A DNA stretch of 64,000 nucleotides, taken from contig JAIYCT010000003.1 in the NCBI GenBank assembly GCA_027487865.1, positions 186,001 through 250,000 on the forward strand. The letters are read 5' to 3'. This DNA is from Microbacteriaceae bacterium. GTDB taxonomy: Bacteria > Actinomycetota > Actinomycetes > Actinomycetales > Microbacteriaceae. The notes under the pieces are model-generated. The model ran no database searches and was not told the DNA's origin. It saw only the letters and a list, made by a program, of their open reading frames with translations. The position numbers and the translations under genes are program-made. This document shows, piece by piece, positions 28,268 to 43,571 of this stretch; positions within the stretch are counted from its first letter, which is position 1; every line of letters starts with the position of its first letter.

Positions 28268-28285
28268 TTCTGTAAAGAATTAGTC

Positions 28286-28315: not shown

Positions 28316-28350
28316 GCTTTGCCTGTTTGAGCGAAAGACCTGCCAAAAGA

Positions 28351-28386
28351 ATCAGCCCCACCCAAATTGCTTTGAGTGGGGCTGAT
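28351..28386 (-). terminator. Terminator of the permease gene
   Basis: 11-bp stem ATCAGCCCCAC/GTGGGGCTGAT (28351-28361 with 28376-28386). On the minus strand it is followed by TCTTTT. It lies 14 bp after the permease stop. Confidence 0.75.
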
Positions 28387-28399
28387 AGCAGTGCTGCTA

Positions 28400-29905
28400 T
28401 TAGGAGAGCATGTCCTTGGTTAGTTCGTTCTTCTCGCTCTTGTTGATTAGAGCCCATACATAACCGATTACTCCGGCGATGAAAGGTAGTAGAACAAGGA
28501 ACCAGCCAAGACCGTTGAGCTGCCATGCGCTCTCAGGCAGGGATGGGTCAACACCCTCTGGCGCGGTGCCAGCGAGCAGGTTGAAGCGGCTCATCAATAG
28601 GTAGAGCGCTAGTAGCAACAGAATTGCCGAGGCTACAGGTGCGATGGTTGACTTCCAAAGGTTCTCGCCACCGTTCTGCTTGAAGAAGCGCACAACTGCC
28701 ACGGAGACCAGGACCTCAACAATCAAAAGGCTGATAACCGTAACTGCGCTCATCCAGAAGAACAAGTTGAGAACTGGGTCCAGACCGGCAATTGCGAAGA
28801 TGATCATGACAGCTGCGGCGAGAACCGAGGTTGCAATTACACCATTCGATGGAGCACCAGCAGCGTTGGTCTTTCCGAAGCTAGCCGGTAGAACACCGCC
28901 ACGACCCATTGCAAAGAAGTAGCGAGCGCTGGCGTTCTGGAATGCCAATAGACCGGCAAACAAGCTGGTGATTACCAACCAACCCATAACAGTGGTCATC
29001 CATGGGCCAACGTATTGGTTAGCCAGCGAGAAGAGCACAGCGGCTGGGTCGGCTAGTGGGACGCCATCGATTGCTGAACGAGCAATAACCTCATCAAAAA
29101 TCTTGGAGGCTCCCATACCGGTGACCATCGCGAATGAGGTGAATGCGAATACCACGGTGATTAGTCCGATAGCCCAGTAGGTTGCCTTAGGCACTGAGCG
29201 CTTAGGGTCAATCGACTCTTCACCGTAGATTGCGGTTGCCTCAAAACCAATGTATGAAGCAACAGCAAAGGCTAAAGCGATACCGGCACCACCGGCAAAG
29301 CCACCAGCGAGAATCTGATCAGGTGAGAAGGAAGCTCCGAAGTTTAGGCCCTCTGGTCCGCCATCAATCAAAATCACGGCTGCGGTAATCAGTAGTGCAG
29401 TCAGCTCGATTACAAGCAAGACTCCAAGAACCTTGGCGCCGATGTCGACACTGAGTAGTGAAAGTCCAGTTACTAGCGCCCAGGCAATCAAAGACCATAC
29501 ATACCAGGGAAGTTCAATCCCCATGGCACCCATTTGGCCAGCCAGTACGCCACCGAAGAAGCCATAGATAGCCAGCTGAATGGTTATGTACGAGACGATG
29601 GATACAAAGGCGGAGGCAACACCTGCGTTAGCACCAAGACCTCTGCCCACGTAGGCGAAGAAGGCGCCTGTATTTGTGACCCGACTGCTCATGGCGGCGT
29701 AGCCGACACTGAACAACATCAGGATTAAGCCAACTGCTAGGTAAGCACCTGGAGCAGCAGCTCCGTTGCCTGCGAGCATTGCCACTGGAACCGCACCGGT
29801 CATTCCCACAAGAGGGGCGGAGGCGGCTACTACGAAGAAGACAATACCTAAAACACCAAGTTTTCCGGATTTAAGTGACCCGGCCGATCCGTTTTTCTGC
29901 GACAT
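28400..29905 (-). CDS. APC-superfamily amino acid/amine permease
   Basis: 501 residues with about 12 hydrophobic helices. The first helix has the APC hallmark GVLGIVFFVVAASAPL, and FEATAIYGEES in the middle marks the substrate-binding helix 6 region. Cation-coupled uptake of an amino acid or amine is expected. ATG 29905 is preceded by GAGGAG. Divergent from the ADC-like gene, with a perfect TCGTTT-N6-AAACGA palindrome upstream, placing it in the same putative regulon as the glutamine synthetase-like gene. The substrate cannot be read from the sequence; an aromatic amine or amino acid is inferred from context. Confidence 0.88.
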   Translation of the reverse strand: MSQKNGSAGSLKSGKLGVLGIVFFVVAASAPLVGMTGAVPVAMLAGNGAAAPGAYLAVGLILMLFSVGYAAMSSRVTNTGAFFAYVGRGLGANAGVASAFVSIVSYITIQLAIYGFFGGVLAGQMGAMGIELPWYVWSLIAWALVTGLSLLSVDIGAKVLGVLLVIELTALLITAAVILIDGGPEGLNFGASFSPDQILAGGFAGGAGIALAFAVASYIGFEATAIYGEESIDPKRSVPKATYWAIGLITVVFAFTSFAMVTGMGASKIFDEVIARSAIDGVPLADPAAVLFSLANQYVGPWMTTVMGWLVITSLFAGLLAFQNASARYFFAMGRGGVLPASFGKTNAAGAPSNGVIATSVLAAAVMIIFAIAGLDPVLNLFFWMSAVTVISLLIVEVLVSVAVVRFFKQNGGENLWKSTIAPVASAILLLLALYLLMSRFNLLAGTAPEGVDPSLPESAWQLNGLGWFLVLLPFIAGVIGYVWALINKSEKNELTKDMLS

Positions 29906-29925
29906 AAATTCTCCTCATTGAGTTT

Positions 29926-29949
29926 TAGTCGTTTTGACACAAACGACTA
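29926..29949. promoter_or_regulatory. Island operator site 1
   Basis: Perfect 9-bp arms TAGTCGTTT (29926-29934) and AAACGACTA (29941-29949), 6-bp spacer. It lies 21-44 bp upstream of the permease start. Confidence 0.7.
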
Positions 29950-30043
29950 CGTTCTACATTGGCGCAAATCAAGCCGAATGTGTGAAGGATTTAGGCACTT
30001 GAGAAAGTTCTAAATCAAATCGTTATAAAGCGATGAATAGGAA

Positions 30044-30065
30044 AATCGTTTGAAAGCAAATGATT
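30044..30065. promoter_or_regulatory. Island operator site 2
   Basis: AATCGTTT (30044-30051), 6-bp spacer, AAATGATT (30058-30065): 7 of 8 pairs match. It ends just before TATTCT (30068-30073), the candidate -10 box of the ADC-like gene, so a bound protein would block the -35 region. Confidence 0.6.
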
Positions 30066-30080
30066 GCTATTCTTGACTAC

Positions 30081-30893
30081 ATGACCGAACTAAGTGGGTT
30101 TCTCGCCCCAAAGACGCCTTCAGGCAAAAGTGCAATTATTCCTCACATGCCGTGGTTCTACTCTGGAACCCTGCTGACCGTTGAGTATTTGACAGATCCT
30201 AAGAATGTCCGAGCAATCCTCCCCCCAGAGCTTGAGTTGGCAGAGGAAGAGCCAGGAGCAGTCGCATTGATTTGGGCGGATTGGCAGTCATGCAGCACCG
30301 ATAAGGAAGAGCTACTCGATCCAGTGAGATCACAGTACATGGAAGCCTTCGTGGTTGTTCGGTGCAAGTTCGAAGGGGTCACCTACTCAAGGTGTGTGGC
30401 GATCTGGGTTTCTAAGGACTTCGCAATTGCCAGAGGTTGGTTCCAGGGTTACCCAAAGAAGTTGGGTTCAATTCACGCGACTCGCGTTTACAACCGTGGG
30501 CAAGCGACCCCGAGGCTAGAAGCCGGGGCCAAGTTTGGAGCAAGCATCGCAGCCAACGACCACAGATTGGCAGAGGCAGTGGTCACACTTCGTGCGAAGT
30601 CGGAGCACAACGGATTTGTAAATGGACACAAGATGCTGCACAGTCGTTGGATGCCGTCAATCACACCTGGACTGGGAAACTCCATGGATCAGCTGATCAC
30701 CATGGGTGGCGTCGACGCTGATCTGGGAACTCCTTGGGTTGGCGATGCAGAGCTCAATCTTTTCGATTCACGTTGGGACGAGCTCGGTTCGATTCTTCCG
30801 GTTCAGGAAATTCTCGGGGGCTATTTCCGTGAGGTTGGAGTGACCTTCAACGGCGGCACCCTAGTCAAGGACTTCTCGAACCCCAACATCTAA
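30081..30893 (+). CDS. Acetoacetate decarboxylase family protein
   Basis: 270 residues. The GYPKKLGS motif carries the Schiff-base Lys pair of the acetoacetate decarboxylase superfamily, and the length fits. Superfamily members also include other Schiff-base lyases and hydratase-aldolases, so acetoacetate itself need not be the substrate. ATG 30081 is chosen because TATTCT lies exactly 7 nt upstream, a leaderless layout; ATG 30060 lies inside the operator region. In this island it may act on a 2-oxo or enol intermediate of the ring-cleavage route (inference). No signal peptide or membrane segment. Confidence 0.75.
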   Translation: MTELSGFLAPKTPSGKSAIIPHMPWFYSGTLLTVEYLTDPKNVRAILPPELELAEEEPGAVALIWADWQSCSTDKEELLDPVRSQYMEAFVVVRCKFEGVTYSRCVAIWVSKDFAIARGWFQGYPKKLGSIHATRVYNRGQATPRLEAGAKFGASIAANDHRLAEAVVTLRAKSEHNGFVNGHKMLHSRWMPSITPGLGNSMDQLITMGGVDADLGTPWVGDAELNLFDSRWDELGSILPVQEILGGYFREVGVTFNGGTLVKDFSNPNI

Positions 30894-30901
30894 ATCCAAC
30901 T

Positions 30902-30925
30902 GACCTTAGCCCTCAAGGTCTGAGG
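30902..30925. terminator. Weak hairpin between convergent genes
   Basis: GACCTT/AAGGTC (30902-30907 with 30915-30920) overlaps an alternative CCTCA/TGAGG pairing. Neither has a clear T-tract. Confidence 0.35.
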
Positions 30926-30939
30926 ACGGTGACTTTGGT

Positions 30940-32292
30940 TTAGAAGTCCTCCATGTATTCGCGGATTTCCCATTCGCTCACGGTGCGACCGTGGAGTTGT
31001 CCGACTTCTGAGTTGTAGCGTTCGAGCTCATCTCGCTTCAGGGTCAGGAAAATCTCAATAAGGCTGTCCGAAATCAGACCGCGAAGTTCGTTGTCTTGTT
31101 CAAGTGCCTCTAACGCATCGGTAAAGGTGGTTGGCAGCACCGGAGCACCTTCGTTTTCGTAAGCCATTCCCTCTGCAGGCTCTGGGCACTCAAGCTTGTT
31201 GAGAATACCCAGTAGTCCAGCACCCAGAATTCCAGCGATCATTAGATACGGATTAGCTGCGCCGTCTCCAACGCGCACCTCAAGGCGCGTTCCACTGCCA
31301 CGCTCAGGAGGTATTCTCACCATGCAGCTGCGGTTGTCATAACCCCAGTTGGCGCGGAATGGAGCCAGGGTGTCCGGTCCGAGACGCTTGAAGGCGTTGA
31401 TCGATGGGTTGGTCAAAGCGGTTAGGCCGGAAGCGTGCGCGGTGATACCGGCGATTAGGCGCTGGGCCACCTCAGAGAGCTCACCACTGCCGTTATCCAT
31501 CAAGTTCTTGCCGTTGGCGTCAACCACCGAGAAGTGAAGGTGGAAACCACTACCGCCCTCATCGCTCCATGGCTTACCCATAAAGGTGGCGTGCTGACCG
31601 GTGCGGTGCACGATGTCTTTGATTGCGGCCTTGAACATCAAGGTACGGTCTGCAGCGTCTAGCGCGTCAGAGTGCCAAATGTTGATTTCGTACTGACCTG
31701 GGCTGAATTCGTGGTTACCGGCGTAAACACCAATATCCATCTGGTCCAGCATTCGCATCAGGTGAAGGAATGTGCCGTGAGGGTCCACCAGCGATCCGGT
31801 GGTGTAAGCCCTGCCGGTGCGGTCCAGCGATCGCTTGAAACCACCTTCCGGGGTTCGATCAGCGATGTAGAACTCGAGCTCGGGGCCAACAATCGGGCGC
31901 AAACCCAGCTCTTGGTATTTGGCGATAATCAACTGTAGAGCTGTGCGCGGTGAGAAGAGGTTCGGGTTACCGTTTGGTTCGCGTGCGTCCATAATGACGT
32001 AGGCCACCCCCGGCTCCCAGGGCATGGGCGTGATGGTCTCGGGTTCGATACGCCCGACTAGGTCCTGAAGTCCGTCGCTGAGGATGTTTGCTGCATCCAG
32101 CACACCACCCTGAGTATTGGTGTTCCAAATTCCCTGACAAAACGTCGGTCCACCATGGGCGGAACGATCTATGTTGCTTACCAGCAGGTCTTTGGAGCGA
32201 GGGATTCCCAGCACGTCCGAATACATAACTCGCAGAACGTCGATGCCGCGCTGGCGTAGGGACTCTTTCAGTGCGCCTAAGTCGAGAGCCAA
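30940..32292 (-). CDS. Glutamine synthetase-like gamma-glutamyl-amine ligase
   Basis: 450 residues. Glutamine synthetase fold: VGPELEFYI and NHEFSPGQYEINI hold metal-binding Glu residues, and GSGFHLHFS holds the active-site His. The closest type by layout is the PuuA/GlnA3/GlnA4 group, which joins glutamate to polyamines or ethanolamine, rather than housekeeping GlnA. TTG 32292 is chosen because AAAGGAG lies 5 nt upstream on the minus strand; the frame is open further up through the operator but without a good start. Its divergent partner is a class I amidotransferase. The acceptor amine is unknown. Confidence 0.85.
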   Translation of the reverse strand: MALDLGALKESLRQRGIDVLRVMYSDVLGIPRSKDLLVSNIDRSAHGGPTFCQGIWNTNTQGGVLDAANILSDGLQDLVGRIEPETITPMPWEPGVAYVIMDAREPNGNPNLFSPRTALQLIIAKYQELGLRPIVGPELEFYIADRTPEGGFKRSLDRTGRAYTTGSLVDPHGTFLHLMRMLDQMDIGVYAGNHEFSPGQYEINIWHSDALDAADRTLMFKAAIKDIVHRTGQHATFMGKPWSDEGGSGFHLHFSVVDANGKNLMDNGSGELSEVAQRLIAGITAHASGLTALTNPSINAFKRLGPDTLAPFRANWGYDNRSCMVRIPPERGSGTRLEVRVGDGAANPYLMIAGILGAGLLGILNKLECPEPAEGMAYENEGAPVLPTTFTDALEALEQDNELRGLISDSLIEIFLTLKRDELERYNSEVGQLHGRTVSEWEIREYMEDF

Positions 32293-32326
32293 TGTAACTC
32301 CTTTGTCACTTTTTGGACCAACCAAA

Positions 32327-32350
32327 CTGTCGTTTGGGAACAAACGACAG
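32327..32350. promoter_or_regulatory. Island operator site 3
   Basis: Perfect inverted repeat: CTGTCGTTTG (32327-32336) and CAAACGACAG (32341-32350). The TCGTTT/AAACGA core has the same 6-bp spacing as sites 1 and 2. It lies between the divergent synthetase-like and amidotransferase genes. Confidence 0.75.
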
Positions 32351-32422
32351 AATAGTATCTGAATCTACCCAATTGCAGATTAGAGCGCAAAAGTTATCTT
32401 TGCGTGATTTAGGAGGAGTTCC

Positions 32423-33133
32423 ATGAGGGCACTGTTTATTCAGCATGACCATGTGAGCCCAACTGGCCCGGTTTCTCAGCGCTTGCGCCACCATGGATTT
32501 GAGATTGAAGAGCGAACTGTTGTGCCTGAGCAGCTGTTCAGCACGCCAAACCAGGCCAGCTTTCAGTTCCCTGACCTTGATGATTACGACCTCATCATCC
32601 CACTGGGTGCTCCCTGGGGCGCCTGGGACGATGCCTGCATCGGAAACTGGCTGCAGCCGGAGCTCGACTGGGTTCGCACTGCTGTAACGCAAAACAAGCC
32701 GGTGTTGGGCATTTGCTTTGGCGGCCAGCTAATAGCTAGGTCAATGGGGGGTAGCGTTGCGCGCGGCCCACAGTGTGAGATTGGGTGGAAGACGATCTGG
32801 AGCGAGGCTCCGGAAATTGTGTCTAATGGTCCATGGTTCCAATTTCACTACGACCGCTGGCAGCTGCCCGAAGGTGCAGTTGAAATCGCTAGGAATCCGA
32901 TTGCCTCACAGGCCTTTGTCATCAACAAATCCCTAGCGATACAGTTTCACCCTGAGATTAACGCAGCGGGCCTGCAGGACTGGTTGGCCTGGGGCGGGGA
33001 TAAGAAGGTGGTTGAGGATGGACAAGATCCGGATATCATGATGCGTCAAACTTTGGCCGAAGAGGCCGAGGCCGAAAAGCGCACCTTCGCGTTGGTCGAC
33101 GGATTCCTAAAGCACGTCGCCAAACTAATTTAG
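32423..33133 (+). CDS. Class I glutamine amidotransferase-like hydrolase
   Basis: 236 residues. The nucleophile elbow GICFGGQ and the HPEI motif supply the Cys-His-Glu triad of class I amidotransferases. A free-standing domain beside a glutamine synthetase-like gene recalls the aniline pathway pair (AtdA1/AtdA2) and the Puu hydrolase, where the amidotransferase-like partner handles a gamma-glutamyl amide. Ribosome binding site AGGAGGA before ATG 32423. Its stop overlaps the convergent P450 stop by 4 bp. Function is inferred from context. Confidence 0.8.
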   Translation: MRALFIQHDHVSPTGPVSQRLRHHGFEIEERTVVPEQLFSTPNQASFQFPDLDDYDLIIPLGAPWGAWDDACIGNWLQPELDWVRTAVTQNKPVLGICFGGQLIARSMGGSVARGPQCEIGWKTIWSEAPEIVSNGPWFQFHYDRWQLPEGAVEIARNPIASQAFVINKSLAIQFHPEINAAGLQDWLAWGGDKKVVEDGQDPDIMMRQTLAEEAEAEKRTFALVDGFLKHVAKLI

Positions 33134-34377
33134 CGAGAACTAATCTCGACCTGCATGCGCTTGATTCCATGCACAAAATTTGACCTCAAGAAGTCGATTT
33201 CGCCGACCCGCTTGGCAGAGGAAATTCGGCCAATTAGATCTTCAAACATGACCCTTAGTTCAATTCTTGCTAGCGCATTGCCGAGGCACATGTGAGGGCC
33301 ACCGCGACCAAAGGTCATGTGCTCGTTTGGATTTCTGAGCACATCCATCACATCTGCATTGTCAAAGACAGCTGCGTCTCGGTTTCCGGATGCGAACCAC
33401 GTAACGACCTTGTCGCCAGCTTTAATCAATTGACCATTGAGCTCAACGTCCTTGGTCGCGGTCCTTCTGAAGTGATAGACCGGGCTGGCAAAGCGTAAGA
33501 ATTCCTCCACTGCCCAAGGGATTAGCTCTGGGTTCTCCTGGAGCAACTCAAGTTGCGATGGGTTTTGCAGCAGGTTGTTGAAGGTGTGGCTGATGGTGTG
33601 ACGAGTGGTCTCGTTACCGGCAACCACCAGCAGCAAGAAATTGGTGTGGAAGTCGCGCTCAGTCAACGGCACGCCATCACTCATCGGGTTGTTTACCAGC
33701 ACCGAAACTAGATCCGTGCCATCTTTACCTGCGCGTTCCCGCGCCAATTCATCGCCATACGCGAATAGCTCAAGAGCTGCCGGTGAGCGGAAGGGAATCA
33801 GGCGGTACTGTTCGCTGTCCGGATCGCTTATCAAGACATCCGCGTGCTCTGGGTCGTCGAAACCAATCATGCGGTTTCCCCAGTCAATTAGCTTGCCGGT
33901 ATCAGACTCTGGAACATCGAGCAGCTTCGCCAGCACCTGAATTGGGAAGTCCGCCGCCACTTCGGTAACAAAATCGAAAGTGCCCTTGGCCAGAGCATTG
34001 TCTAGGGTGGTGGCCGTCAAGCCCCTAAGGAAGGTCTCGTAAACCGACACCGCCTGCGGAGTGAACTGTCCTTGCAGCAGTCTTCGAAGCGCACGGTGCC
34101 GAGAACCATCAGTCTCCAACAGTGAGCGTCGGGCTTGCTCTTGCTCAGCATCTACTTCCTCAAGATTTGTGAATCGCTCAGAAGTGAAGGTCTCGGAGTC
34201 TCGCAGGACTTTGACGATGTCGTGGTACCTGGTTACCGCCCAAAAGCCACTGTTGGGCGCTTCTTCCTCACACCAGTGAATCGGGGATTTCTCCCGAAGC
34301 TCTCTAAAGGCTGCCCAGGGTGCGCCCTGGGAAAAAAGGTCTAGATCTGCGAGGTTGATACTCGACGCTGAGCTCAT
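33130..34377 (-). CDS. Cytochrome P450 monooxygenase
   Basis: 415 residues, soluble bacterial class I P450. The I-helix AGNETTRH holds the oxygen-activating Thr, the ExxR is in EEFLRF, and the haem-Cys loop is FGRGGPHMCLGNALAR near the C-terminus. The partner ferredoxin and reductase are encoded at 39011-40402 in the same island. ATG 34377 has AAGGA about 6 nt upstream. Likely substrate: an aromatic or amine intermediate, perhaps ring hydroxylation toward a catechol for the HpaD-type enzyme (inference). Confidence 0.92.
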   Translation of the reverse strand: MSSASSINLADLDLFSQGAPWAAFRELREKSPIHWCEEEAPNSGFWAVTRYHDIVKVLRDSETFTSERFTNLEEVDAEQEQARRSLLETDGSRHRALRRLLQGQFTPQAVSVYETFLRGLTATTLDNALAKGTFDFVTEVAADFPIQVLAKLLDVPESDTGKLIDWGNRMIGFDDPEHADVLISDPDSEQYRLIPFRSPAALELFAYGDELARERAGKDGTDLVSVLVNNPMSDGVPLTERDFHTNFLLLVVAGNETTRHTISHTFNNLLQNPSQLELLQENPELIPWAVEEFLRFASPVYHFRRTATKDVELNGQLIKAGDKVVTWFASGNRDAAVFDNADVMDVLRNPNEHMTFGRGGPHMCLGNALARIELRVMFEDLIGRISSAKRVGEIDFLRSNFVHGIKRMQVEISSR

Positions 34378-34390
34378 CAGGAATCCTTAG

Positions 34391-34410
34391 GTCGTTTGGA
34401 TGCTAACAAT
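34391..34410. promoter_or_regulatory. Island operator site 4 (degenerate)
   Basis: GTCGTTT (34391-34397), 6-bp spacer, then TAACAAT (34404-34410). One half-site is intact, the other keeps 4 of 6 core bases. It lies between the P450 and the MarR gene, where autoregulation would act. Confidence 0.4.
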
Positions 34411-34487
34411 AATGACTCTAGCTAACTTAAGGTGCTTGGGGCTAGCGGCTTTACAATAGTGATACAAACTTTGAGAATTTAGGGGCC

Positions 34488-34985
34488 ATGGCCGGGATTC
34501 ACACCATCGCAGAAACCGAGCGCCAAGTCAGCCTCGTGTTGGGCTCTAAAGCCCTCGATTTCGAATCAATGGCGGTAGTGGCGAACATTTTCCGTGCCTC
34601 GAATAATCTTCGCAACCACCTAGAGCGCTCGGTGCTGCAGGCACACAATCTTTCTTGGACTGGCTTTGTGGTGCTTTGGGTGGTTTGGATCTGGGGGCCG
34701 GTTGAGACTCGTGAGGTTGCGCGCGAAAGCGGCATTTCGAAGGGAACGCTAACCGGCGTCATGAAGACTTTAGAAGGTAGGGGTTACCTGGTGCGAGACC
34801 GCGGAAAAACCGACGGTCGCTTGGTCGATGTCAGCCTGACCAAAGCCGGCAGTGCTCTCATGGATAGCCTGTTTCCGCAGTTCAACCAAGAAGAAGCCCA
34901 GGTTGCCAGTGTGCTCAGTAGCCAGGAGAAGGCCGATATTTCAAGGCTGCTGCGACTGATCGCTAGCCACACCGCTAAAGCTTGA
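34488..34985 (+). CDS. MarR-family transcriptional regulator
   Basis: 165 residues. A winged helix: TREVARESGISKGTLTGVMK is the recognition region and LVRDRGKTDGRLVDVSLT the wing. Many MarR proteins repress aromatic catabolic genes and release DNA on binding the substrate; HpaR of the homoprotocatechuate pathway is one. It is the only dedicated regulator inside the island, so the candidate ligand of the TCRTTT-N6-AAAYGA palindromes. ATG 34488 after TTAGGGGCC; a TACAAT at 34452-34457 could be the -10 box. It converges with the PuuD-like gene (11-bp overlap). Confidence 0.9.
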   Translation: MAGIHTIAETERQVSLVLGSKALDFESMAVVANIFRASNNLRNHLERSVLQAHNLSWTGFVVLWVVWIWGPVETREVARESGISKGTLTGVMKTLEGRGYLVRDRGKTDGRLVDVSLTKAGSALMDSLFPQFNQEEAQVASVLSSQEKADISRLLRLIASHTAKA

Positions 34986-35670
34986 AAGTACTCGCTTCGT
35001 GGACGAAGCGCTTGAGCATCCCTAGCTGCCCCGCCTCGGAATCGTAGTTGTCCTCTGGGTGCCACTGCACCCCGTAAGCCCAACCCGCAGATGGGTATCG
35101 AACCGCCTCTAAGTAGCCGTCGGTGGACTTGCCGAGCACCTCAATACCATCCCCTAGGCGAGCAATAGCTTGGTGGTGATAACACGAAGTCTTTAGCGGA
35201 CCTGGCTCTAGGCCAAGCTGCACCACTGATTCATCGAAGTTGATTTCTGAGATGTGGTGCCGGTGGTGCTTGGTCATGTCTTGAATCAGCGAGCCACCTA
35301 AGGCAACGTTGGTCACCTGAAAGCCCCGGCAGATAGCGAAATAGGGCATGGCCTTTTCTAGCGCGAAACGAGCGAGTGAAAAGTCCACTTCGTCTTGAAG
35401 TTCATCAATGCCGTAGAGCTCATCGTTGTTTGGCTCTTCGCCATAACGCAACGGATTGATATCTGAACCCCCTGGCATCAGCACTCCGGAGAAACCAGCT
35501 AGGACCGTGCTCCAGTCGGAATCCTTGGTCGGCAACAGTGTGATGGGTTCGCCGCCAGCGGCGTGAACCGCTTCGAGAAGTCTTCGAGCATTCACCAAGC
35601 CTGCGTAGCGGGTGACTGACGTCGACTCGGCAAATCGGCCAAGAATTGCGATCCGGGGTCTGAAATCCAT
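34975..35670 (-). CDS. Gamma-glutamyl-amine hydrolase, PuuD-like (peptidase C26)
   Basis: 231 residues. MPGGSDINP, the nucleophile motif AICRGFQ, YHHQ and GVQWHPE define the C26 class I amidotransferase hydrolases such as PuuD, which cleaves gamma-glutamyl-GABA. ATG 35670 (MDFRPRIAIL) has AGGAAG upstream; the longer frame from 35700 is not needed. Divergent from an aldehyde dehydrogenase across site 5. With the ligase at 30940 it would complete a protect and release cycle for an amine. Confidence 0.85.
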   Translation of the reverse strand: MDFRPRIAILGRFAESTSVTRYAGLVNARRLLEAVHAAGGEPITLLPTKDSDWSTVLAGFSGVLMPGGSDINPLRYGEEPNNDELYGIDELQDEVDFSLARFALEKAMPYFAICRGFQVTNVALGGSLIQDMTKHHRHHISEINFDESVVQLGLEPGPLKTSCYHHQAIARLGDGIEVLGKSTDGYLEAVRYPSAGWAYGVQWHPEDNYDSEAGQLGMLKRFVHEASTFKL

Positions 35671-35728
35671 CGTTCTTCCTAAATTGTTATAAAGATTCAC
35701 GGGGCCTGGCCAATTGGATGTTCTAGTC

Positions 35729-35754
35729 TAAATCATTAGTGTCCAAATGATTTA
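35729..35754. promoter_or_regulatory. Island operator site 5
   Basis: Perfect 9-bp arms TAAATCATT (35729-35737) and AATGATTTA (35746-35754). In register with sites 1-3 it reads TCATTA-N6-AAATGA. It ends 11 bp before the GTG of the aldehyde dehydrogenase. Confidence 0.65.
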
Positions 35755-35765
35755 AGGGAGACCCC

Positions 35766-37229: not shown

Positions 37230-37231
37230 AA

Positions 37232-38143
37232 ATGGGTCAAGTACTTGGCGCAGGCCTACTCGCGCACGTGCCCACGATTATGCTCCCCGAGGCGGTTCGA
37301 AAAGACCTGAACGAGGGCAAGGAGCTAAGTCTGGTTCCGGGGCTAAAGCAGCTTCGTAAAGACGTCTTTGAGACTCTCGACTACGACACGGTGATTGTTC
37401 TGGATAGCCACTGGGCCACAACTGTCGAGTTCGTTGTCACCTCAGCCGCTGAGCGCTCAGGACTATTTACCTCCGAAGAGCTACCCAGAGGCATGACGCA
37501 GGTCCCCTACTCATTCAAGGGAGATCCGGAGCTGGCTCAGTTGATCGCCGGCAAGGCAGAGAAGAACGGAACCTGGATTACTCCAATTTCGGATCCGCAC
37601 CTTCCAATCTTCTACGCCACTATCAACCTCTGGCACTACCTTGGTCGCGGCCTAGATGACAAGCGCTGGATCAGTGTTTCGGTCTGCCAGACCGGAACCT
37701 CGGAAGACTTCCTTCGGGCCGGCCGCGCCATTGGTGAGGCTATTGCGGAGTCCGACCGAAAGGTCCTGATTCTTGCGTCAGGTGCGCTATCCCACACCTT
37801 CCACAAGCTGCGCGATTTGCGCAAGCACGAAGCCAGTGATCCAAAGCACATCTACACCCCAGAGGCTTATGCGTATGACCTGCAGGTGCTCGATTGGATG
37901 AAGGCTGGAAACCACGGCGCAATTTTGGATGACTTCGGTACCTTCAAGAAGTACAAGCCAGAGGCAGGCTTCTTCCACTACCTTGCAATGGCCGGAGCGC
38001 TAGGGGAAGAGGAGCTGACCGCCAAGGGTGTCATGTACAGCGAGTACGAAAACTCGATTGGCACGGGCCAGGTTCACGTCTGGTTCCCCCAGCCCGAAGC
38101 CGGTTTCCCAAGCGCTAAAAATTTGGTGCTATCTCGTGATTGA
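37232..38143 (+). CDS. hpaD: 3,4-dihydroxyphenylacetate 2,3-dioxygenase, LigB/HpaD type
   Basis: 303 residues. Class III extradiol dioxygenase. LLAHVPTIML, VIVLDSHW, TSEELP, YSFKGDPELAQLIAG, LASGALSHTF and SIGTGQVHVWFP match the E. coli HpaD pattern recalled from the family, including the His residues that bind Fe(II). ATG 37232 has AAGGA 6 nt upstream and gives MGQVLGAGLLAHVP; the upstream ATG at 37217 overlaps hpaE and has no clear ribosome binding site. The stop overlaps the next gene by 8 bp. Confidence 0.88.
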   Translation: MGQVLGAGLLAHVPTIMLPEAVRKDLNEGKELSLVPGLKQLRKDVFETLDYDTVIVLDSHWATTVEFVVTSAAERSGLFTSEELPRGMTQVPYSFKGDPELAQLIAGKAEKNGTWITPISDPHLPIFYATINLWHYLGRGLDDKRWISVSVCQTGTSEDFLRAGRAIGEAIAESDRKVLILASGALSHTFHKLRDLRKHEASDPKHIYTPEAYAYDLQVLDWMKAGNHGAILDDFGTFKKYKPEAGFFHYLAMAGALGEEELTAKGVMYSEYENSIGTGQVHVWFPQPEAGFPSAKNLVLSRD

Positions 38144-39014
38144 AACTAGAAGAATCCTGCTGGATGGCTTTCCCGTCGAAGTTCTGCGACAGGGTGAAGA
38201 ACTGATTGCGCCGGACGGTCGATCCGTCGCGATTGAGGACGCGATTCATCTCGCTCCCGCAGAGCCAACAAAAATCATTGCGGTGCATCTCAACTACGAT
38301 TCCCGAACCCAAGAGTTCATGACCAAGTTGCCTTCTGCTCCAACCTATTTCCACAAGCCAATCACCGCGCTGAACTCACACCAAGGTGCAGTAGTCCGCC
38401 CGGAGGGATGTAAGTGGTTGAACTACGAGGGTGAAATCGTGATTGTGATCGGAAAAACCTGTCGCAACATTTCACCAGCCGAAGCTGGCGAATACATCGC
38501 GGGCTACACCGTTGGCAATGACTATGGGCTGCACGACTTCCGCGACACGGATGCCGGCTCAATGCTCCGCGTCAAGGGCTCGGACACTTTGGCGCCGGTT
38601 GGCCCAGGCTTGGTTCGGGATTGGGACTTCCGCAATAAGTACATCCGAACCTATGTCAACGGTGTTCTGAAGCAGGACGACAACACCGACAACATGGAGT
38701 GGGATATGCACTACCTGGTTGCCGACATTGCCAGAACCATCACCTTGGTTCCAGGCGACATGCTTTTCAGCGGCACCCCCGCCAACTCCAGACCGGTTCA
38801 ACCGGGTGATGTTGTTGAGGTCGAAGTAGAGGGACTCGGCCGACTTACAAACCACATCGTTGTTGGTCCAACGCCAATCAGGACCGACGTCGGAGCGCAG
38901 CCCACCGAGAGCGAAGAGGTTATCTCCACAGCCATGGGTGGGGACTGGGAGTTCAGAGGAATTAGAACCCCTTCCAAAGACCTTTATCCATCGACCGTCG
39001 AGGAGAAAAAATGA
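38136..39014 (+). CDS. hpaG: Fumarylacetoacetate hydrolase family protein, HpaG-type
   Basis: 292 residues. The FAH fold metal-binding region is seen in NYEGEIVIVIGK, GYTVGNDYGLHDFRDTDAGS and KGSDTLAPVGP; VPGDMLFSGTPANSRPVQPGD resembles the HpaG isomerase/decarboxylase. Likely role: decarboxylation or isomerisation of the opened ring product in the homoprotocatechuate route. GTG 38136 overlaps the hpaD stop; the frame is open upstream but only as antiframe of hpaD. A C-terminal tail of about 45 residues extends past the usual end. It couples to the ferredoxin through ATGA. Confidence 0.83.
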   Translation: MIETRRILLDGFPVEVLRQGEELIAPDGRSVAIEDAIHLAPAEPTKIIAVHLNYDSRTQEFMTKLPSAPTYFHKPITALNSHQGAVVRPEGCKWLNYEGEIVIVIGKTCRNISPAEAGEYIAGYTVGNDYGLHDFRDTDAGSMLRVKGSDTLAPVGPGLVRDWDFRNKYIRTYVNGVLKQDDNTDNMEWDMHYLVADIARTITLVPGDMLFSGTPANSRPVQPGDVVEVEVEGLGRLTNHIVVGPTPIRTDVGAQPTESEEVISTAMGGDWEFRGIRTPSKDLYPSTVEEKK

Positions 39015-39202
39015 TCAAAATCAACGTGGACATGAATAAGTGCCAGCACTATGGACAGTGTGTTTTTGAGGCACCGAACATTTTCAAGCTGAACGAAGAC
39101 GACAAGCTTGAGTACGTTGCAACGGCAGACGATTCTGAGTTGGGAAACATCGAAGCAGCAATTGATGTTTGCCCAATGCAGGCGATCTTCATCGTCGATT
39201 AG
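39011..39202 (+). CDS. [3Fe-4S]-type ferredoxin, P450 partner
   Basis: 63 residues. Spacing C-x5-C (KCQHYGQC) plus a distant CP (VCPMQ) gives the three-Cys pattern of 3Fe-4S ferredoxins that serve actinobacterial P450s, with His in the place of the missing cluster ligand. It begins in a 4-nt overlap with the previous gene and is followed by its reductase after 9 bp. Confidence 0.9.
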   Translation: MIKINVDMNKCQHYGQCVFEAPNIFKLNEDDKLEYVATADDSELGNIEAAIDVCPMQAIFIVD

Positions 39203-39211
39203 TTCACGACC

Positions 39212-40402
39212 GTGTCCGAAGGAGTAGTCGTCGTTGGTGCCTCTATGGGTGGCCTGCGATTGGCAGAAAGCCTGCGGCGATTCGGATATACGGGACCAGT
39301 AAGAATCTTCGGCAACGAGGGCCATCCACCATATAACAGACCTCCGCTTTCCAAAGATCTGCTCTCAGCCGCGGAGATTGACTTTGCTGAGGTGGCATTT
39401 CCGCAACGTTCAGCTACCGCTGATGTTGAGTGGAACCTATCTGCTGAGGTAGTTGCGGCTGACCTAACCAGCCAACACATCACCATCAGCGGGGGAAAGC
39501 AAGTTTCCTTCGAACACCTCATTATTGCGACCGGGCTAAGGTCTAAACGACTGGGATTTGAATCCTTCCCAGGCGATCGTCATGCATTGCGCAGCTTCGA
39601 GGATGCCAAGGCATTGCGCTCAAAGCTTGGAGTTGGAAGAAAGATTGTGATTATCGGGTCTGGCTTTATTGCCTGTGAGGTGGCTGCTACCGCAACCAAG
39701 TTAGGCTGCGAAGTCCACATAGTTTCGCCTTCAAAATCCCCAATGGATCGAGCACTCGGAGAAAAGCTTTCAGCAGTCGTCAAACTCAGGCTAGAAGCAC
39801 AAGGGATTACTTTCCACATGCAGGCAACCGTTATAGAACTAATTGGCTCAAATCGGCTTGAAGCTGTGGCCTTGAGTGATGGCAGCACTGTCCGCTGCGA
39901 CACCTTGGTCGAAGCAATTGGCTCAGAGGCAAACTGCGAGTGGCTGGCCGGCAACGACCTTGACATAACAGATGGCCTGCTTTGCGACGGGTCCCTGCGA
40001 GCAGTTCGGGCCTCCGGCGGATCATGGCCAAATGTTTTTGGCGTTGGGGATGTGGCTAGATTTCCAAATCCGATCTTTGACGCAACTCCGCGCCGCATTG
40101 AGCACTGGAATATCCCAACCGAGTCAGCCAAATTTGTTGGACAGCAAATTGCCGCTAGCTATAACTCGATCGAAGCGACTGTCGAAGTCTTCCGACCACT
40201 GCCCTCTTTTTGGAGCGATCAGTTTGACATGCACATTTTCGGACTGGGCATGTCATACCTTGCCGACGCATCTAAGTTGGTGCACGGAGACATTTCAGGG
40301 GACTGCGTTTTTGAATTCACCCGAGAAGGTGTTTTAGTTGGAGTTGTCGGTATTGGACATCGATCCGTGGTCCAAAATTACAGATCAGCACTGGAAAGGT
40401 AG
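39212..40402 (+). CDS. FAD-dependent ferredoxin reductase
   Basis: 396 residues. N-terminal FAD motif VVVVGASMGGLRLAESLR, a second nucleotide-binding motif IVIIGSGFIACEVA for NAD(P)H, and VFGVGDVARF for the FAD ribityl contact. It belongs to the putidaredoxin reductase/BphA4-like group that passes electrons to small ferredoxins. With the ferredoxin and the P450 at 33130 it forms a full three-part monooxygenase. GTG start. Confidence 0.9.
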   Translation: MSEGVVVVGASMGGLRLAESLRRFGYTGPVRIFGNEGHPPYNRPPLSKDLLSAAEIDFAEVAFPQRSATADVEWNLSAEVVAADLTSQHITISGGKQVSFEHLIIATGLRSKRLGFESFPGDRHALRSFEDAKALRSKLGVGRKIVIIGSGFIACEVAATATKLGCEVHIVSPSKSPMDRALGEKLSAVVKLRLEAQGITFHMQATVIELIGSNRLEAVALSDGSTVRCDTLVEAIGSEANCEWLAGNDLDITDGLLCDGSLRAVRASGGSWPNVFGVGDVARFPNPIFDATPRRIEHWNIPTESAKFVGQQIAASYNSIEATVEVFRPLPSFWSDQFDMHIFGLGMSYLADASKLVHGDISGDCVFEFTREGVLVGVVGIGHRSVVQNYRSALER

Positions 40403-40408
40403 AGCCAC

Positions 40409-40675
40409 ATGAGCAACTCATTTTTTGATCTAGACATTTCTTTTGAGGACGACCCAGCACCGGACCTGTCGAAGATTCCGGTCGCAAAGCTGCGAGCTGC
40501 AATCGAAGAGTTGCCGGAAGCTCTCAAGGTTGTGGCGCAGGGAATCTTGCTCGAGAAGCGCACCATGTCAGATGTCTCCCAAGCGCTTGGCATTCGTCAG
40601 GGTGAACTGGTGACCCGGCTACACAGGGCACAGCTTGCCATCGGCATGGCACTGATGAATTCGCCGAGAGGATAA
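40409..40675 (+). CDS. Small stand-alone sigma region 4-like HTH protein
   Basis: 88 residues. The C-terminal 55 residues (ELPEALKVVAQGILLEKRTM, then SDVSQALGIRQGELVTRLHRAQ) have the layout of sigma-70 region 4. There is no region 2, and the first 25 residues are acidic. It is embedded between the reductase and an aldehyde dehydrogenase with gaps of 6 and 4 bp, so it is co-expressed with catabolic enzymes. It may be a DNA-binding or polymerase-binding regulator of the operon; the function is not known. Confidence 0.7.
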   Translation: MSNSFFDLDISFEDDPAPDLSKIPVAKLRAAIEELPEALKVVAQGILLEKRTMSDVSQALGIRQGELVTRLHRAQLAIGMALMNSPRG

Positions 40676-40679
40676 GTTA

Positions 40680-42107
40680 GTGACCATTCTGCAGAACTTC
40701 GTGGATGGCGAATATGTGCAGTCACACGCGGCTGAGGCTTTGGACGTCGTTGAACCGGCAACCGGCATTACATATGCCCAAGCTCCAATTTCTACCGCTG
40801 CCGAAGTACATGCGGCCTTTAAGAGCGCAGCGCGCGCCTTTGAGGTCTGGGGACAATCCACTCCAGGTGAGCGTCAGCTTGCACTGCTAAAAATCGCAGA
40901 TGCCATTGAGGCTAGATCGGAAGAGATTGTTTCGGTTGAGTCGCGCGACACCGGAAAGCCTCTTGCGGCAGTCAGGGGCGAAACCCGTGCAATTCTGAAT
41001 CAGATCAGATTCTTCGCTGGAGCAGCCAGGAGCCTAGAGGGCAGAGCTGCCGGTGAGTATCTTCGGAATCACACCTCTTTTATTCGCAGGGAGCCAATTG
41101 GCGTAATCGGCCAAATCGCGCCTTGGAACTACCCGCTGGTAATGGCAACCTGGAAGTTCGCACCGGCACTCGCGGCTGGAAACACGGTTGTTCTCAAGCC
41201 CAGCGATACCACCCCCGCCGTGACATTGCTACTTGCAGAAATCGCCGCTGAGTTTCTGCCGACCGGCACTTTCAATGTTGTTTTGGGAGACCGCTCCACT
41301 GGCCAAGCCTTGGTGGAGGATGCCATCCCACAGATGATTGCTATTACTGGTTCGGTCGGTGCGGGAATGCAGGTTGCCAAGACCGCTGCCTTGGACCTCA
41401 AGCGAGTTCACTTGGAACTCGGCGGTAAAGCCCCGGTAGTCATTTTTGAAGATGCCGACTTGGAGAAAGCGGCAAACTCTCTGGTTGAAGCCGCTTTCTA
41501 CAACGGTGGGCAAGACTGCACAGCGGCAACACGGTTCTTGGTGCATGAGTCGGTGGTTGCAGATTTCACTGAGTTGTTTAAGTTGGCCATCAAGAAATCC
41601 GCCAAGGTCGGAACACCTGAGCAAGACGGCATTCTTTTCGGTGCGATCAACAACGCGGCCCAACTCGAAAGAGTCAGAGGTTTTGTCAACCGGCTCCCCG
41701 ATCATGCTCGCTTGGAACTTGGCGGAGACGATCCAATTCGAAATGGCGGTTACTTCCACTCCGCCACCCTGCTCACCGGCCTGCGACAGACCGACGAACA
41801 TATTCAAGATGAAATCTTTGGCCCAGTCGTTACCGTGCAGTCCTTCAAGGATGAGGCTCAAGCCCTGACCTTTGCCAATGATGTGAAGTACGGATTGGCC
41901 GCTTCGGTTTGGACCAAGGATCACGCTAGGGCGATGAGAATGTCAAAGCACTTGAGTTTTGGAGCGGTTTGGATCAACACCCATGGACCGCTGACCCCGG
42001 AGATGCCGCACGGTGGCTATCGTCACTCCGGCTACGGCAAGGACCTGTCAATTTACGGCTTTGAGGATTACACCCGAATCAAGCACGTCATGTCCGCTAT
42101 AGATTGA
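40680..42107 (+). CDS. Aldehyde dehydrogenase, aminobutyraldehyde/betaine-aldehyde type
   Basis: 475 residues. Complete aldehyde dehydrogenase core: APWNYPLVMATWKFAPALAA, ELGGKAPVVIFEDAD, catalytic Cys in GGQDCTAATR, and EIFGPVV. The C-terminal YRHSGYGKDLSIYGFEDYTR followed by IKHVM is typical of gamma-aminobutyraldehyde dehydrogenases. It may oxidise the aldehyde left after amine removal. GTG start. It converges with the decarboxylase gene (11-bp overlap). Confidence 0.85.
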   Translation: MTILQNFVDGEYVQSHAAEALDVVEPATGITYAQAPISTAAEVHAAFKSAARAFEVWGQSTPGERQLALLKIADAIEARSEEIVSVESRDTGKPLAAVRGETRAILNQIRFFAGAARSLEGRAAGEYLRNHTSFIRREPIGVIGQIAPWNYPLVMATWKFAPALAAGNTVVLKPSDTTPAVTLLLAEIAAEFLPTGTFNVVLGDRSTGQALVEDAIPQMIAITGSVGAGMQVAKTAALDLKRVHLELGGKAPVVIFEDADLEKAANSLVEAAFYNGGQDCTAATRFLVHESVVADFTELFKLAIKKSAKVGTPEQDGILFGAINNAAQLERVRGFVNRLPDHARLELGGDDPIRNGGYFHSATLLTGLRQTDEHIQDEIFGPVVTVQSFKDEAQALTFANDVKYGLAASVWTKDHARAMRMSKHLSFGAVWINTHGPLTPEMPHGGYRHSGYGKDLSIYGFEDYTRIKHVMSAID

Positions 42108-43503
42108 TGCTCTTCGCAACCTCTTCAAGCACTTCGAATAAATCGTCGACATCTTCACGTGTGGTGCGGAAGTTTGTGAAGCAGGGTCTCAACCAGGTTT
42201 CGCCATCGATTTGCGCCTCCGACAGGAAGAAGCGCCCGTCTTGAACTACGGCTTCGGTGAGCAACTGATTCAGTTTTGAAGTTTTTGCTGAATCTGCATG
42301 CTGTAGTTGGATTGGCACCACCGAGAGCTGTGGTCGGTTATCCAGCACTCTAAAGTTTCCCCTGCTGGATGCAATCGAGTAGCAGTACTGAGCTAGATCA
42401 AGGTTGCTCTCCAGTGCAGCCCTGAAGCCTTCTGCCCCAAAGGCGGCAAGCGCCATCCAAAGTTTTAGTGCACGCAAGGGTCGTGAATACTCCAGGGTGA
42501 GATCGACAGGATTTGCGGCCTGGGTGTCGTGCGGCATGTATGCCTCATCGTGACCAAACGTGCTCTGCAGGACTGAGAGGTCTTGTACTAAAAGCACGCT
42601 GCAAGCCTTGGGCACAAACATCCACTTGTGGGCATCGATGGTTACCGAGTGCGCTCGGTCGATTCCGGCAAACAGCGCTGCTCCGGTCAGGGTTCCAGCT
42701 GCCGGTGCACCATAGGCACCGTCCACGTGCAGCCAAACTCCAAACTCGTCTGCCAAGTCTGCAATCTGACTCATTGGATCGACCGCACCAGTCAACGTGG
42801 TGCCGGCGGTGGCGATGATTGCCATTGGCGTGAAGCCGTCTGCTAAGTCTTGCTGGATTTGAGCCCGCAGTAAGTCAGTTCTCATCCTTCTGTTGCCATC
42901 GACTCCAATGGCTCGCATCGAGTTTGAGCCAAGCCCTAAAAGCTCAACAGCCCTAGTGTTGGAGTAGTGGGACTCCACCGAGCAATACACAGTCAACTTC
43001 TTGGAGTTACCTAGCTTGCGGGCATCGGGATCAACTCGCTGTCTAGCGGCCGCAAGTGCGGTCAGGTTGCTAACGGTTCCGCCGCTGGTAAAGAGCCCTT
43101 CGGCGTTATGAAAACCAACGAATTGCCCCAGCCAGCGAGCGGTTTGCTGCTCTAGCAGCGAGGCTGCCTTGGAGTCGATGGCAAGGTTGAAGTCATAGGA
43201 AGCTGCCAGAAAATCGGCCACCGCTCCAATCTCCAAGCCCGAAGAGCCGATGTAGGCAAGGAAGCGCGGCCGGGACTGGGCAAGGGACTGGTCGAGAACC
43301 TTGGAGGCGACCTCCAGAGTGATTCTGTCTCCCCAACCGGTTTCGGGAAGCTGGGTGGATAACACCGATTTGGTTTCGGCTGTCAGTTCTGGCTCAGTTG
43401 GCCTAGGGTGATCAATTTCGGACCAGGTTTGGCTGATTCTGCGCTTGACATCATCTAGCAGTAACTCTCGAGCCCCATTGTTCAAGCGTTCTTCGAATCG
43501 CAT
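42097..43503 (-). CDS. PLP-dependent group II amino acid decarboxylase
   Basis: 468 residues. HVDGAYG holds the Asp that contacts the pyridine ring and SVTIDAHKWMFVP the Schiff-base Lys; LFTSGGTVSNLTAL binds phosphate. Family members include aromatic-L-amino-acid (tyrosine, DOPA), 2,4-diaminobutyrate and glutamate decarboxylases; the sequence alone does not separate them here. Together with the HpaD-type route, an aromatic amino acid is plausible (inference). ATG 43503 lies 7 nt after TAGACT (43516-43511, minus strand), a leaderless layout. Confidence 0.82.
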   Translation of the reverse strand: MRFEERLNNGARELLLDDVKRRISQTWSEIDHPRPTEPELTAETKSVLSTQLPETGWGDRITLEVASKVLDQSLAQSRPRFLAYIGSSGLEIGAVADFLAASYDFNLAIDSKAASLLEQQTARWLGQFVGFHNAEGLFTSGGTVSNLTALAAARQRVDPDARKLGNSKKLTVYCSVESHYSNTRAVELLGLGSNSMRAIGVDGNRRMRTDLLRAQIQQDLADGFTPMAIIATAGTTLTGAVDPMSQIADLADEFGVWLHVDGAYGAPAAGTLTGAALFAGIDRAHSVTIDAHKWMFVPKACSVLLVQDLSVLQSTFGHDEAYMPHDTQAANPVDLTLEYSRPLRALKLWMALAAFGAEGFRAALESNLDLAQYCYSIASSRGNFRVLDNRPQLSVVPIQLQHADSAKTSKLNQLLTEAVVQDGRFFLSEAQIDGETWLRPCFTNFRTTREDVDDLFEVLEEVAKSINL

Positions 43504-43571
43504 ATTTGGAAGTCTATGTGAAGCCGACCAAACACCGACCTATTCGACTCGGTGCCAAGCACGAGAAGCTG

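Follow-up and report, generated by a model that had tools for sequence, protein, structure and literature searches.

The homoprotocatechuate pathway converts a ring that bears a CH2COOH side chain to CO2, pyruvate and succinic semialdehyde. In the Puu pathway for putrescine, gamma-glutamyl-4-aminobutyraldehyde is the substrate of PuuC, after which PuuD frees gamma-aminobutyrate (GABA). The mycobacterial P450 clusters for morpholine and piperidine combine a P450 and ferredoxin with a glutamine-synthetase-like gene, and they are not known to contain aromatic ring-cleavage genes. The island described here occupies positions 28400-43503 of a stretch of 64,000 nucleotides (the window; contig JAIYCT010000003.1 of assembly GCA_027487865.1, in our numbering G000:C7:186001-250000) from a Microbacteriaceae bacterium with a 1.47-Mb genome that is 99.1% complete. 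Its predicted genes for glutamylation, P450 oxygenation and ring cleavage are interleaved on both strands and form one conserved system. We see an even chance that it is a catabolic island for tyrosine or tyramine (or DOPA or dopamine), in which glutamate would stay on the amine until the ring is gone. The new element would be the fusion of gamma-glutamyl-capped amine catabolism to meta-cleavage. No description of this route was found among the matches listed in a literature search of openly licensed PMC papers, and the passages of the Luna-1 paper covered by a term search do not mention aromatic, P450, tyramine, polyamine or putrescine (PMC12422013).

Gene Content and Conservation of the Island

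The distribution of three marker genes was determined in a family sample of 249 genomes, which includes the window's own genome; counts are uncorrected for shared ancestry. With thresholds of at least 65% identity for the P450 and E 1e-100 for the ligase, LigB was found in 28, the P450 in 30 and the ligase in 28 of the 249 genomes (a further P450 match at 39% identity was left out of the 30). All 28 LigB genomes contain the P450 and 26 of them contain the ligase above threshold; the remaining two, G038 and G112, have contigs that stop before or inside the ligase gene. The two genomes with the P450 and no LigB are G012 and G206. The four relatives of the same genus in the sample are without LigB, P450 and ligase at the thresholds used. 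LigB was also present in 36 of 396 genomes of a phylum sample (E 1e-60).

Gene neighbourhoods were compared in a set from which loci with duplicate LigB sequences had been removed, leaving 95, and of which those with no less than 7.8 kb upstream and 4 kb downstream were retained. The resulting 73 contexts exclude the window's own contig (L159) and loci shorter than 12 kb, and the stretches end at about 10 kb, so a component missing from a context may lie beyond the stretch taken. Residue counts given below are per locus and some contigs enter twice. The interval from tuf (27077-28267) to rpsJ (from 46545) holds 15 cluster genes and a two-component system, and neighbouring cluster genes overlap or are at most 154 bp apart. 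The cluster genes are listed with their best profile scores and, where counted, their occurrence in the 73 contexts:

28400-29905, minus strand: APC-family permease, proposed for amine or amino-acid uptake (AA_permease_2, 80.7 bits; 54/73)
30060-30893, plus strand: acetoacetate decarboxylase (ADC)-superfamily enzyme, resembling MppR and proposed as the lower-pathway hydratase-aldolase (PF06314, 187 bits; 62/73)
30940-32343, minus strand: glutamine-synthetase-like protein, proposed gamma-glutamylamide synthetase (PF00120, 302 bits; 70/73)
32423-33133, plus strand: class-I glutamine amidotransferase (GATase), proposed gamma-glutamylamide hydrolase, as guard or second hydrolase (PF00117, 40.7 bits; 55/73)
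33130-34377, minus strand: cytochrome P450, proposed ring ortho-hydroxylase (PF00067; 68/73)
34488-34985, plus strand: MarR-family regulator, HpaR-like (PF01047, 41.3 bits; TIGR02337 HpaR, 53.4 bits against a cut-off of 121.2; 65/73)
34975-35700, minus strand: Peptidase_C26 PuuD-like protein, proposed gamma-glutamyl hydrolase (PF07722, 142 bits; 35/73)
35766-37229, plus strand: HpaE-like aldehyde dehydrogenase (ALDH_E), proposed for the ring-cleavage semialdehyde (TIGR02299, 514.7 bits against a cut-off of 638.35; 73/73)
37217-38143, plus strand: LigB-type extradiol dioxygenase, HpaD-like (PF02900, 92.5 bits)
38136-39014, plus strand: FAH-superfamily enzyme, like the HpaG C-terminal part, proposed decarboxylase/isomerase (PF01557, 181.5 bits; 67/73)
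39011-39202, plus strand: ferredoxin of 63 amino acids, 3Fe-4S type by its motif CxxYxxC...CP (by sequence; 58/73)
39212-40402, plus strand: FAD-dependent ferredoxin reductase (Pyr_redox_2, 182.9 bits; Reductase_C, 22.5 bits, below its cut-off of 25; 59/73)
40409-40675, plus strand: stand-alone sigma-region-4-like protein of 88 amino acids (by model likeness; 23/73)
40680-42107, plus strand: second aldehyde dehydrogenase (ALDH2), aminobutyraldehyde-dehydrogenase type, proposed gamma-glutamyl-4-aminobutyraldehyde dehydrogenase (PRK13473, 625.8 bits, cut-off 615; 3/73)
42097-43503, minus strand: pyridoxal phosphate (PLP)-dependent amino-acid decarboxylase, proposed for tyrosine or DOPA (PF00282, 186 bits; homologue in 35/73)

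The open reading frame of the FAH enzyme opens at 38028, with the GTG at 38136 as its likely start. A sequence-only reading of the window had named a glutamylation set, a permease, a complete P450-ferredoxin-reductase chain, HpaD-, HpaE- and HpaG-type enzymes, an aldehyde dehydrogenase and a PLP decarboxylase, and each of these is present where that reading had placed it. It had listed neither the ADC enzyme nor the GATase, the MarR regulator or the 88-residue protein.

The gene order is nearly constant across genera of the family and is not kept in Streptomyces or in other classes. Carriers of the cluster include Rhodoluna, Aurantimicrobium, Microcella, Salinibacterium, Alpinimonas, Blastococcus, Embleya, Streptomyces plasmids, a Novosphingobium plasmid and members of other actinobacterial classes, and a pond genome (Microbacteriaceae bacterium isolate D4_MAG_00015) has a LigB that is 100% identical to that of the window. 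Aurantimicrobium minutum MWH-Bo1 and Salinibacterium amurskyense are among the carriers, and within two of these genera genome editing is reported for Rhodoluna lacicola and Aurantimicrobium photophilum (PMC11577799). Recurrent additional neighbours are few and lineage-specific, with no unifying gene. In view of the conserved context and the nearly matching genome sets of LigB, P450 and ligase, a chance assembly was rejected.

Proposed Route

Every step of the route set out here was derived from homology, context and chemistry, while gene content, catalytic residues and conserved context were observed directly. Firstly, the PLP decarboxylase would convert tyrosine to tyramine, which the glutamine-synthetase-like ligase would turn into gamma-glutamyl-tyramine. 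The P450 with its ferredoxin and reductase would then form gamma-glutamyl-dopamine, and extradiol cleavage by LigB would give a 5-substituted 2-hydroxymuconate semialdehyde. Secondly, the HpaE-like ALDH_E would oxidize the semialdehyde to the acid, the FAH enzyme would carry out isomerisation/decarboxylation, and the ADC enzyme would hydrate the product and split it in a retro-aldol reaction via a Schiff base at Lys133, giving pyruvate and gamma-glutamyl-4-aminobutyraldehyde. Lastly, ALDH2 would produce gamma-glutamyl-GABA, from which the C26 or GATase hydrolase would release GABA and glutamate, with GABA transaminase next. The glutamate cap would prevent a cyclisation between the amine and the aldehydes and dispense with an amine oxidase.

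The end product follows from the side chain: since this is CH2CH2NH-Glu instead of CH2COOH, the end aldehyde would be gamma-glutamyl-4-aminobutyraldehyde and not succinic semialdehyde. The capped route thus would account for the ligase, the aldehyde dehydrogenase and the PuuD-like hydrolase without an amine oxidase. The sequence-only reading had proposed capping, P450 oxygenation and HpaD-type opening of a tyrosine- or tyramine-type compound, all of which seem plausible, and had placed oxidation to an arylacetate before ring opening. This order is less likely, because the aldehyde dehydrogenases of aminobutyraldehyde or PuuC-like type, the PuuD-like hydrolase and the GABA transaminase and glutamate-dehydrogenase homologue linked to the cluster in one lineage fit a glutamate that is retained through cleavage. 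Capped ring cleavage to gamma-glutamyl-GABA, to which we assign an evenly balanced probability, explains more of the island's parts than does the arylacetate order, which we consider unlikely. That such a route, from the tyrosine or tyramine ring to pyruvate and gamma-glutamyl-GABA through capped meta-cleavage and an ADC hydratase-aldolase, with no amine oxidase, HpaH or HpaI, is widespread in streamlined aquatic Actinobacteria is a possibility that we rate a little below even.

Ring-Cleavage Enzymes and the ADC Enzyme

The four LigB residues H17, H65, H193 and E249 are kept in 105/105 loci. The AlphaFold model of LigB (pLDDT 90) has as its nearest fold in the PDB 8iq8, a DHPA 2,3-dioxygenase (TM 0.82/0.89), and the top PDB match of the FAH enzyme is HpaG (1gtt, E 5.5e-60). 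The scores stay below the NCBIfam equivalog cut-offs for HpaD (136.7 bits, cut-off 315.95), HpaE (514.7, cut-off 638.35) and the C-terminal part of HpaG (199.2, cut-off 276.4), and a generic FAH-family model outscores HpaG on the FAH enzyme (223 bits, cut-off 444). Since no Hpa or Puu equivalog cut-off was reached, we treat these genes as relatives and not as proven members of those pathways.

As that reading had also stated, the island proteins include no amine oxidase, HpaF, HpaH or HpaI; HpaC is likewise missing from the island, and HpaB is absent among the island proteins, a genome-wide HpaB search not having been made. The own genome has four Amino_oxidase matches, of which the best is a phytoene desaturase. 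The HpaF profile (PF02962) matched in 0/8 cluster genomes, but also in 0/14 genomes of a control set. From the lack of an amine oxidase, HpaF, HpaH and HpaI, that reading had called the route incomplete or different. The simplest candidate for the gap at HpaH/HpaI is the ADC enzyme. It has homology to MppR in the MppR family model (178.8 bits, below the cut-off of 380) and in the PDB (4jm3, MppR, E 3.3e-50), and matches to solved ADC-superfamily aldolase-dehydratases range from E 3.3e-50 to 3.8e-19; among these structures, 4zbo and 6eej are presumably Sbi00515 and 5upb presumably Swit_4259. K133 aligns with the Schiff-base lysine of MppR and is kept in 81/81 loci. In Saccharolobus, two ADC-superfamily proteins that are 77- and 82-fold up on phenol are suggested, in a passage citing MppR chemistry, as possible meta-pathway aldolases (PMC7820114).

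In a more distant Sphingobium cluster (L317, LigB 38%), HpaH and HpaI are annotated and an ADC gene is not listed. HpcH_HpaI matches above the cut-off occur in 6/8 genomes, with none above it in G067 and G131; the best match in the window's genome scores 79.8 bits, and the matched region has no NCBIfam counterpart at 1e-20. Among six genomes searched for FAH proteins, G059 and G229 have only that of the cluster, and the window's genome has two more. The ADC enzyme may thus act as a hydratase-aldolase that fills the HpaH/HpaI step, a role supported by the MppR homology, the invariant lysine, the context, the Sphingobium cluster and the genomes in which no further FAH protein or no HpcH_HpaI match above the cut-off was found.

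The P450 Chain

The redox chain is complete, with P450, ferredoxin and FAD reductase all in the island. The heme ligand Cys364 of the P450 is kept in 93/93 loci and the acid-alcohol pair E/D256-T257 in 94/94, and Cys11, Cys17, Cys54 and Pro55 of the ferredoxin are kept in 79/79. The closest P450s in the PDB are CYP125MRCA (8vxi and 8vxg, the top matches), CYP268, CYP126 and CYP125. The P450 family was rejected as a clue to the substrate, these relatives being silent on aromatic amines.

Two loci bear on the step that the P450 would catalyze. L112 has an HpaB homologue (363.5 bits, cut-off 480.2; 7833-9281) directly before LigB, together with ALDH_E, ADC, FAH and PuuC-like ALDH genes; the 19 kb taken contain neither a P450 nor a ligase. 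In the 28.9 kb read at the locus of Streptomyces lunaelactis, genes for the ligase, the hydrolase and ring cleavage are retained, and those for P450, ferredoxin and reductase are missing. Both loci fit a P450 that would form the catechol.

Glutamylation, ALDH2 and the Hydrolases

The ligase scores 250.5 bits with the gamma-glutamyl-putrescine synthetase model (cut-off 650) and higher, 271.2 bits, with the model of type III glutamine synthetase (cut-off 469.6), in both cases below the cut-off. Its metal ligands E142, E144, E199, E206, H255 and E342 are kept in every aligned locus; of three own-genome proteins used for comparison, the one from L002 proved to be something other than a glutamine synthetase and was disregarded. 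The position equivalent to E327 is Leu in 88/90 loci, and the D50 position is still Asp in 58/91. According to a passage in a study of the amine ligases GlnA4 and PauA7, these have lost the E327 residue and, unlike the island ligase, D50 as well (PMC6529630). A ligase for polyamines only is not favoured, given that PotABCD-like, aminobutyraldehyde dehydrogenase and GABA transaminase genes are found elsewhere in the own genome and that the ring-cleavage genes travel with the ligase.

ALDH2 is the only island enzyme above an NCBIfam cut-off (aminobutyraldehyde dehydrogenase subfamily, 625.8 against 615). Its best PDB relatives are 1wnb and an entry named as a gamma-aminobutyraldehyde dehydrogenase, 6c43, and models of succinic semialdehyde dehydrogenase score about 300 bits lower than the aminobutyraldehyde model. 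It is 68% identical to the aldehyde dehydrogenase of a potABCD-like locus in the own genome, which has PotD- and PotA-like transport, aminotransferase and GABA transaminase genes. ALDHs with PuuC as the best model occur at other cluster loci: in S. lunaelactis and S. canus such a gene shares a few bases with the C26 gene, and four PuuC-best ALDHs tested scored 516-580 bits, below the cut-off of 850. Beyond the permease, a PuuC-like ALDH is present in 6/19 family flanks; one of the six was tested and again had PuuC as its best model (515.7 bits). Similar genes occur near the ligase-P450 pair of Ruegeria (521 bits) and in the ligase-less L112 (590 bits), and since PuuC-like ALDHs are thus found near loci without LigB or without ligase, a resemblance to PuuC argues only weakly for a gamma-glutamyl aldehyde.

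The C26 protein scores 70.1 bits with the gamma-glutamyl-GABA hydrolase model, below its cut-off of 266, and the PuuD-type Cys/His/Glu motifs are kept in 54/54. The GATase keeps Cys98 in 78/78 and His176 and Glu178 in 79/79 loci. Open reading frames of 240 amino acids next to the ligase or decarboxylase in two loci of lineage f15 (placed, like lineage f16, in the same phylum as the window) were rejected as hydrolases, having no Pfam match. In G184, G059 and G083 (L258, L261, L262), the permease end of the cluster is adjacent to another group of genes, with homologues of ligase, GATase, ALDH and alcohol dehydrogenase.

A GABA transaminase is linked to the cluster in 3 of the 73 contexts. In G083, a GABA transaminase (above cut-off) and an overlapping glutamate-dehydrogenase homologue (below) follow the reductase behind a PucR-type regulator, and G146 has copies at 97% and 94% identity. 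The presence of a GABA transaminase in 15/15 cluster genomes was dropped as support, since 15/15 cluster-less relatives have one too (12 above cut-off). The enzyme is general in the family, so that only linkage to the cluster counts, which was seen in one lineage. Open reading frames in L235 were rejected as GABA transaminases.

The PLP Decarboxylase

The PLP lysine is kept in 41/41 loci, and the decarboxylases of other lineages are unlike, being 28-62% identical to that of the window. The latter has 4obu as its closest PDB entry, which we take to be a tryptophan decarboxylase. For the decarboxylase of S. lunaelactis, tyrosine decarboxylase models score best (129 bits, cut-off 905), and its PDB match 5hsi, labelled 'putative decarboxylase', is presumably the tyrosine decarboxylase of Lactobacillus. 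Tyrosine or DOPA is therefore only a suggested substrate.

Alternative Explanations

Several observations weigh against capped ring cleavage of tyramine. Six of the 73 contexts are without P450 or ligase (L033, L039, L105, L107, L108, L112), and the parts for the end of the route are patchy, with ALDH2 in 3, a PuuC-like ALDH in 17, C26 in 35 and the PLP decarboxylase in 35 of the 73. In lineage f16, neither the ALDH nor the aminotransferase that follows LigB reaches a cut-off. The decarboxylase of the window and nine of ten others best match the model of diaminobutyrate decarboxylase, far below the cut-off, the tenth being that of S. lunaelactis. Besides its two further FAH proteins, the window's genome holds one HpcH/HpaI-type protein. 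Two incomplete genomes, G012 (82%) and G206 (77%), keep ligase, P450, ferredoxin, GATase, permease and MarR genes, in G012 also the reductase, with no LigB at E 1e-20 genome-wide and no ADC, ALDH_E or FAH gene at the locus. LigB-less pairs of ligase and P450 were also found in Ruegeria TM1040, next to paaABCDE, in Sagittula and in Mesorhizobium.

These ligase-P450 loci lend themselves to a different order, in which deamination comes first: the ligase would cap the amine, the P450 would oxidize the carbon adjacent to the nitrogen, and the carbinolamide would fall apart into glutamine and an arylacetaldehyde, which an aldehyde dehydrogenase would convert to 3,4-dihydroxyphenylacetate for a homoprotocatechuate-type end in pyruvate and succinic semialdehyde. 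The ligase-GATase-P450 trio in Ruegeria and Sagittula, the P450-permease-ligase-C26 set in Mesorhizobium and the ligase-P450 loci of G012 and G206 agree with this order. So do the ring-cleavage enzymes, in that LigB and ALDH_E are nearest to HpaD and HpaE among named enzymes and the FAH enzyme to HpaG. However, with this order the island has no enzyme to hydroxylate the ring, so that the substrate would have to be a catechol from the start; L112 has an HpaB homologue in place before LigB, and S. lunaelactis keeps the ligase without a P450 at the locus. ALDH2 is of the aminobutyraldehyde and not of the succinic semialdehyde type. We regard deamination first as unlikely. Two related observations concern the P450 loci themselves. 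The Roseobacter trio (L310, L314, L311) points to a kindred amine pathway that uses a P450 but no meta-cleavage. L255 and L256 (genus g13, incomplete genomes) have the stretch from MarR to ferredoxin without LigB, ALDH_E and FAH, with permease, ligase, GATase and P450 retained and the reductase seen in L255.

A different amine treated by the same logic seems more doubtful still. It could be of the aniline or benzylamine type, octopamine-like, or a methoxylated or N-methylated phenethylamine, and the amine released would then not be GABA. A known glutamylating enzyme takes many aromatic amines, as described in part of one report (PMC11335346). Lineages differ in their PLP decarboxylase, with none seen in 38/73 contexts, and the cluster on an S. 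canus plasmid (L034 24193-27053) is flanked by annotated FolD-type, PurU and aminomethyltransferase-family genes. Set against this, ALDH2 with its aminobutyraldehyde type, the PuuD-like hydrolase and the GABA transaminase found next to the cluster indicate a four-carbon amine, and thus a two-carbon side chain. As an observation in its own right, the C1-folate genes beside the S. canus cluster would suit a demethylation that supplies C1 units.

It is very improbable that the island is a composite or a detoxification set, in which glutamylation and P450 would act in the turnover of polyamines or xenobiotics next to unconnected genes for ring cleavage: ligase-P450 pairs do occur alone and a second ligase-hydrolase-ALDH module adjoins the permease in G242, G082 and G145, but LigB, P450 and ligase coincide across the 249 genomes, their genes interleave on both strands in a near-constant order across the family, and the polyamine-type genes of the own genome are located elsewhere.

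Placement and Neighbouring Genes

The tuf-rpsJ interval of the window measures 18.3 kb (28268-46544). In G207, a cluster-less genome of the same genus, tuf and the S10 gene are about 370 bp apart, and in G013, G157, G095 and G010 the gap is 1.5-2.9 kb. G204, of another genus, has the same cluster at the same site, which looks like a hot spot for exchangeable DNA. A two-component system at 43572-45517 lies between the decarboxylase and rpsJ, and no homologue of it was seen there in G204.

The 88-residue protein has no Pfam match. It has 15 invariant columns across 22 sequences, with homologues in L037, L042 and L159-L217, and its model resembles region 4 of ECF sigma factors (SigR 5fgm, TMt 0.89, E 0.04; no match at E 0.001). 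A predicted stand-alone sigma-4-like protein thus sits inside a catabolic operon.

Comparison With Known Systems

If capped ring cleavage of tyrosine-type amines holds, it would join homoprotocatechuate meta-cleavage to the gamma-glutamyl chemistry of the Puu pathway and lead such amines to GABA. Seemingly scattered genes of lake and sea bacteria (Rhodoluna, Aurantimicrobium, Salinibacterium, Microcella) would gain a joint use, and a clade of ADC-superfamily enzymes a function.

With the Hpa meta pathway (HpaG-E-D-F-H-I) the island shares adjacent HpaE-, HpaD- and HpaG-like enzymes, an HpaR-like MarR regulator and a LigB fold nearest to DHPA 2,3-dioxygenase, but it has a P450 and an ADC-superfamily enzyme instead of HpaB/C, HpaF, HpaH and HpaI, and its enzymes score below the equivalog cut-offs. 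With the Puu putrescine pathway (PuuA-B-C-D) it shares a glutamine-synthetase-like ligase, an ALDH of the aminobutyraldehyde or PuuC type, a PuuD-like hydrolase and a permease, whereas a PuuB-like oxidase is replaced by the P450 and the ring-cleavage genes and the ligase falls below the cut-off. MppR and the other ADC-superfamily aldolase-dehydratases resemble the island's enzyme in sequence and in the conserved lysine, while the latter sits in an aromatic catabolic operon. The AtdA and NpaA systems (aniline and 1-naphthylamine dioxygenases) and ipu isopropylamine degradation are alike in that, in the part of the report dealing with them, the amine is glutamate-capped before oxygenation by a set of ligase, GATase and oxygenase (PMC11335346). 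In contrast to AtdA and NpaA, which use a Rieske dioxygenase, the island has a P450, with no Rieske dioxygenase subunits among its proteins, and we propose that the ring would be opened with the amine still attached.

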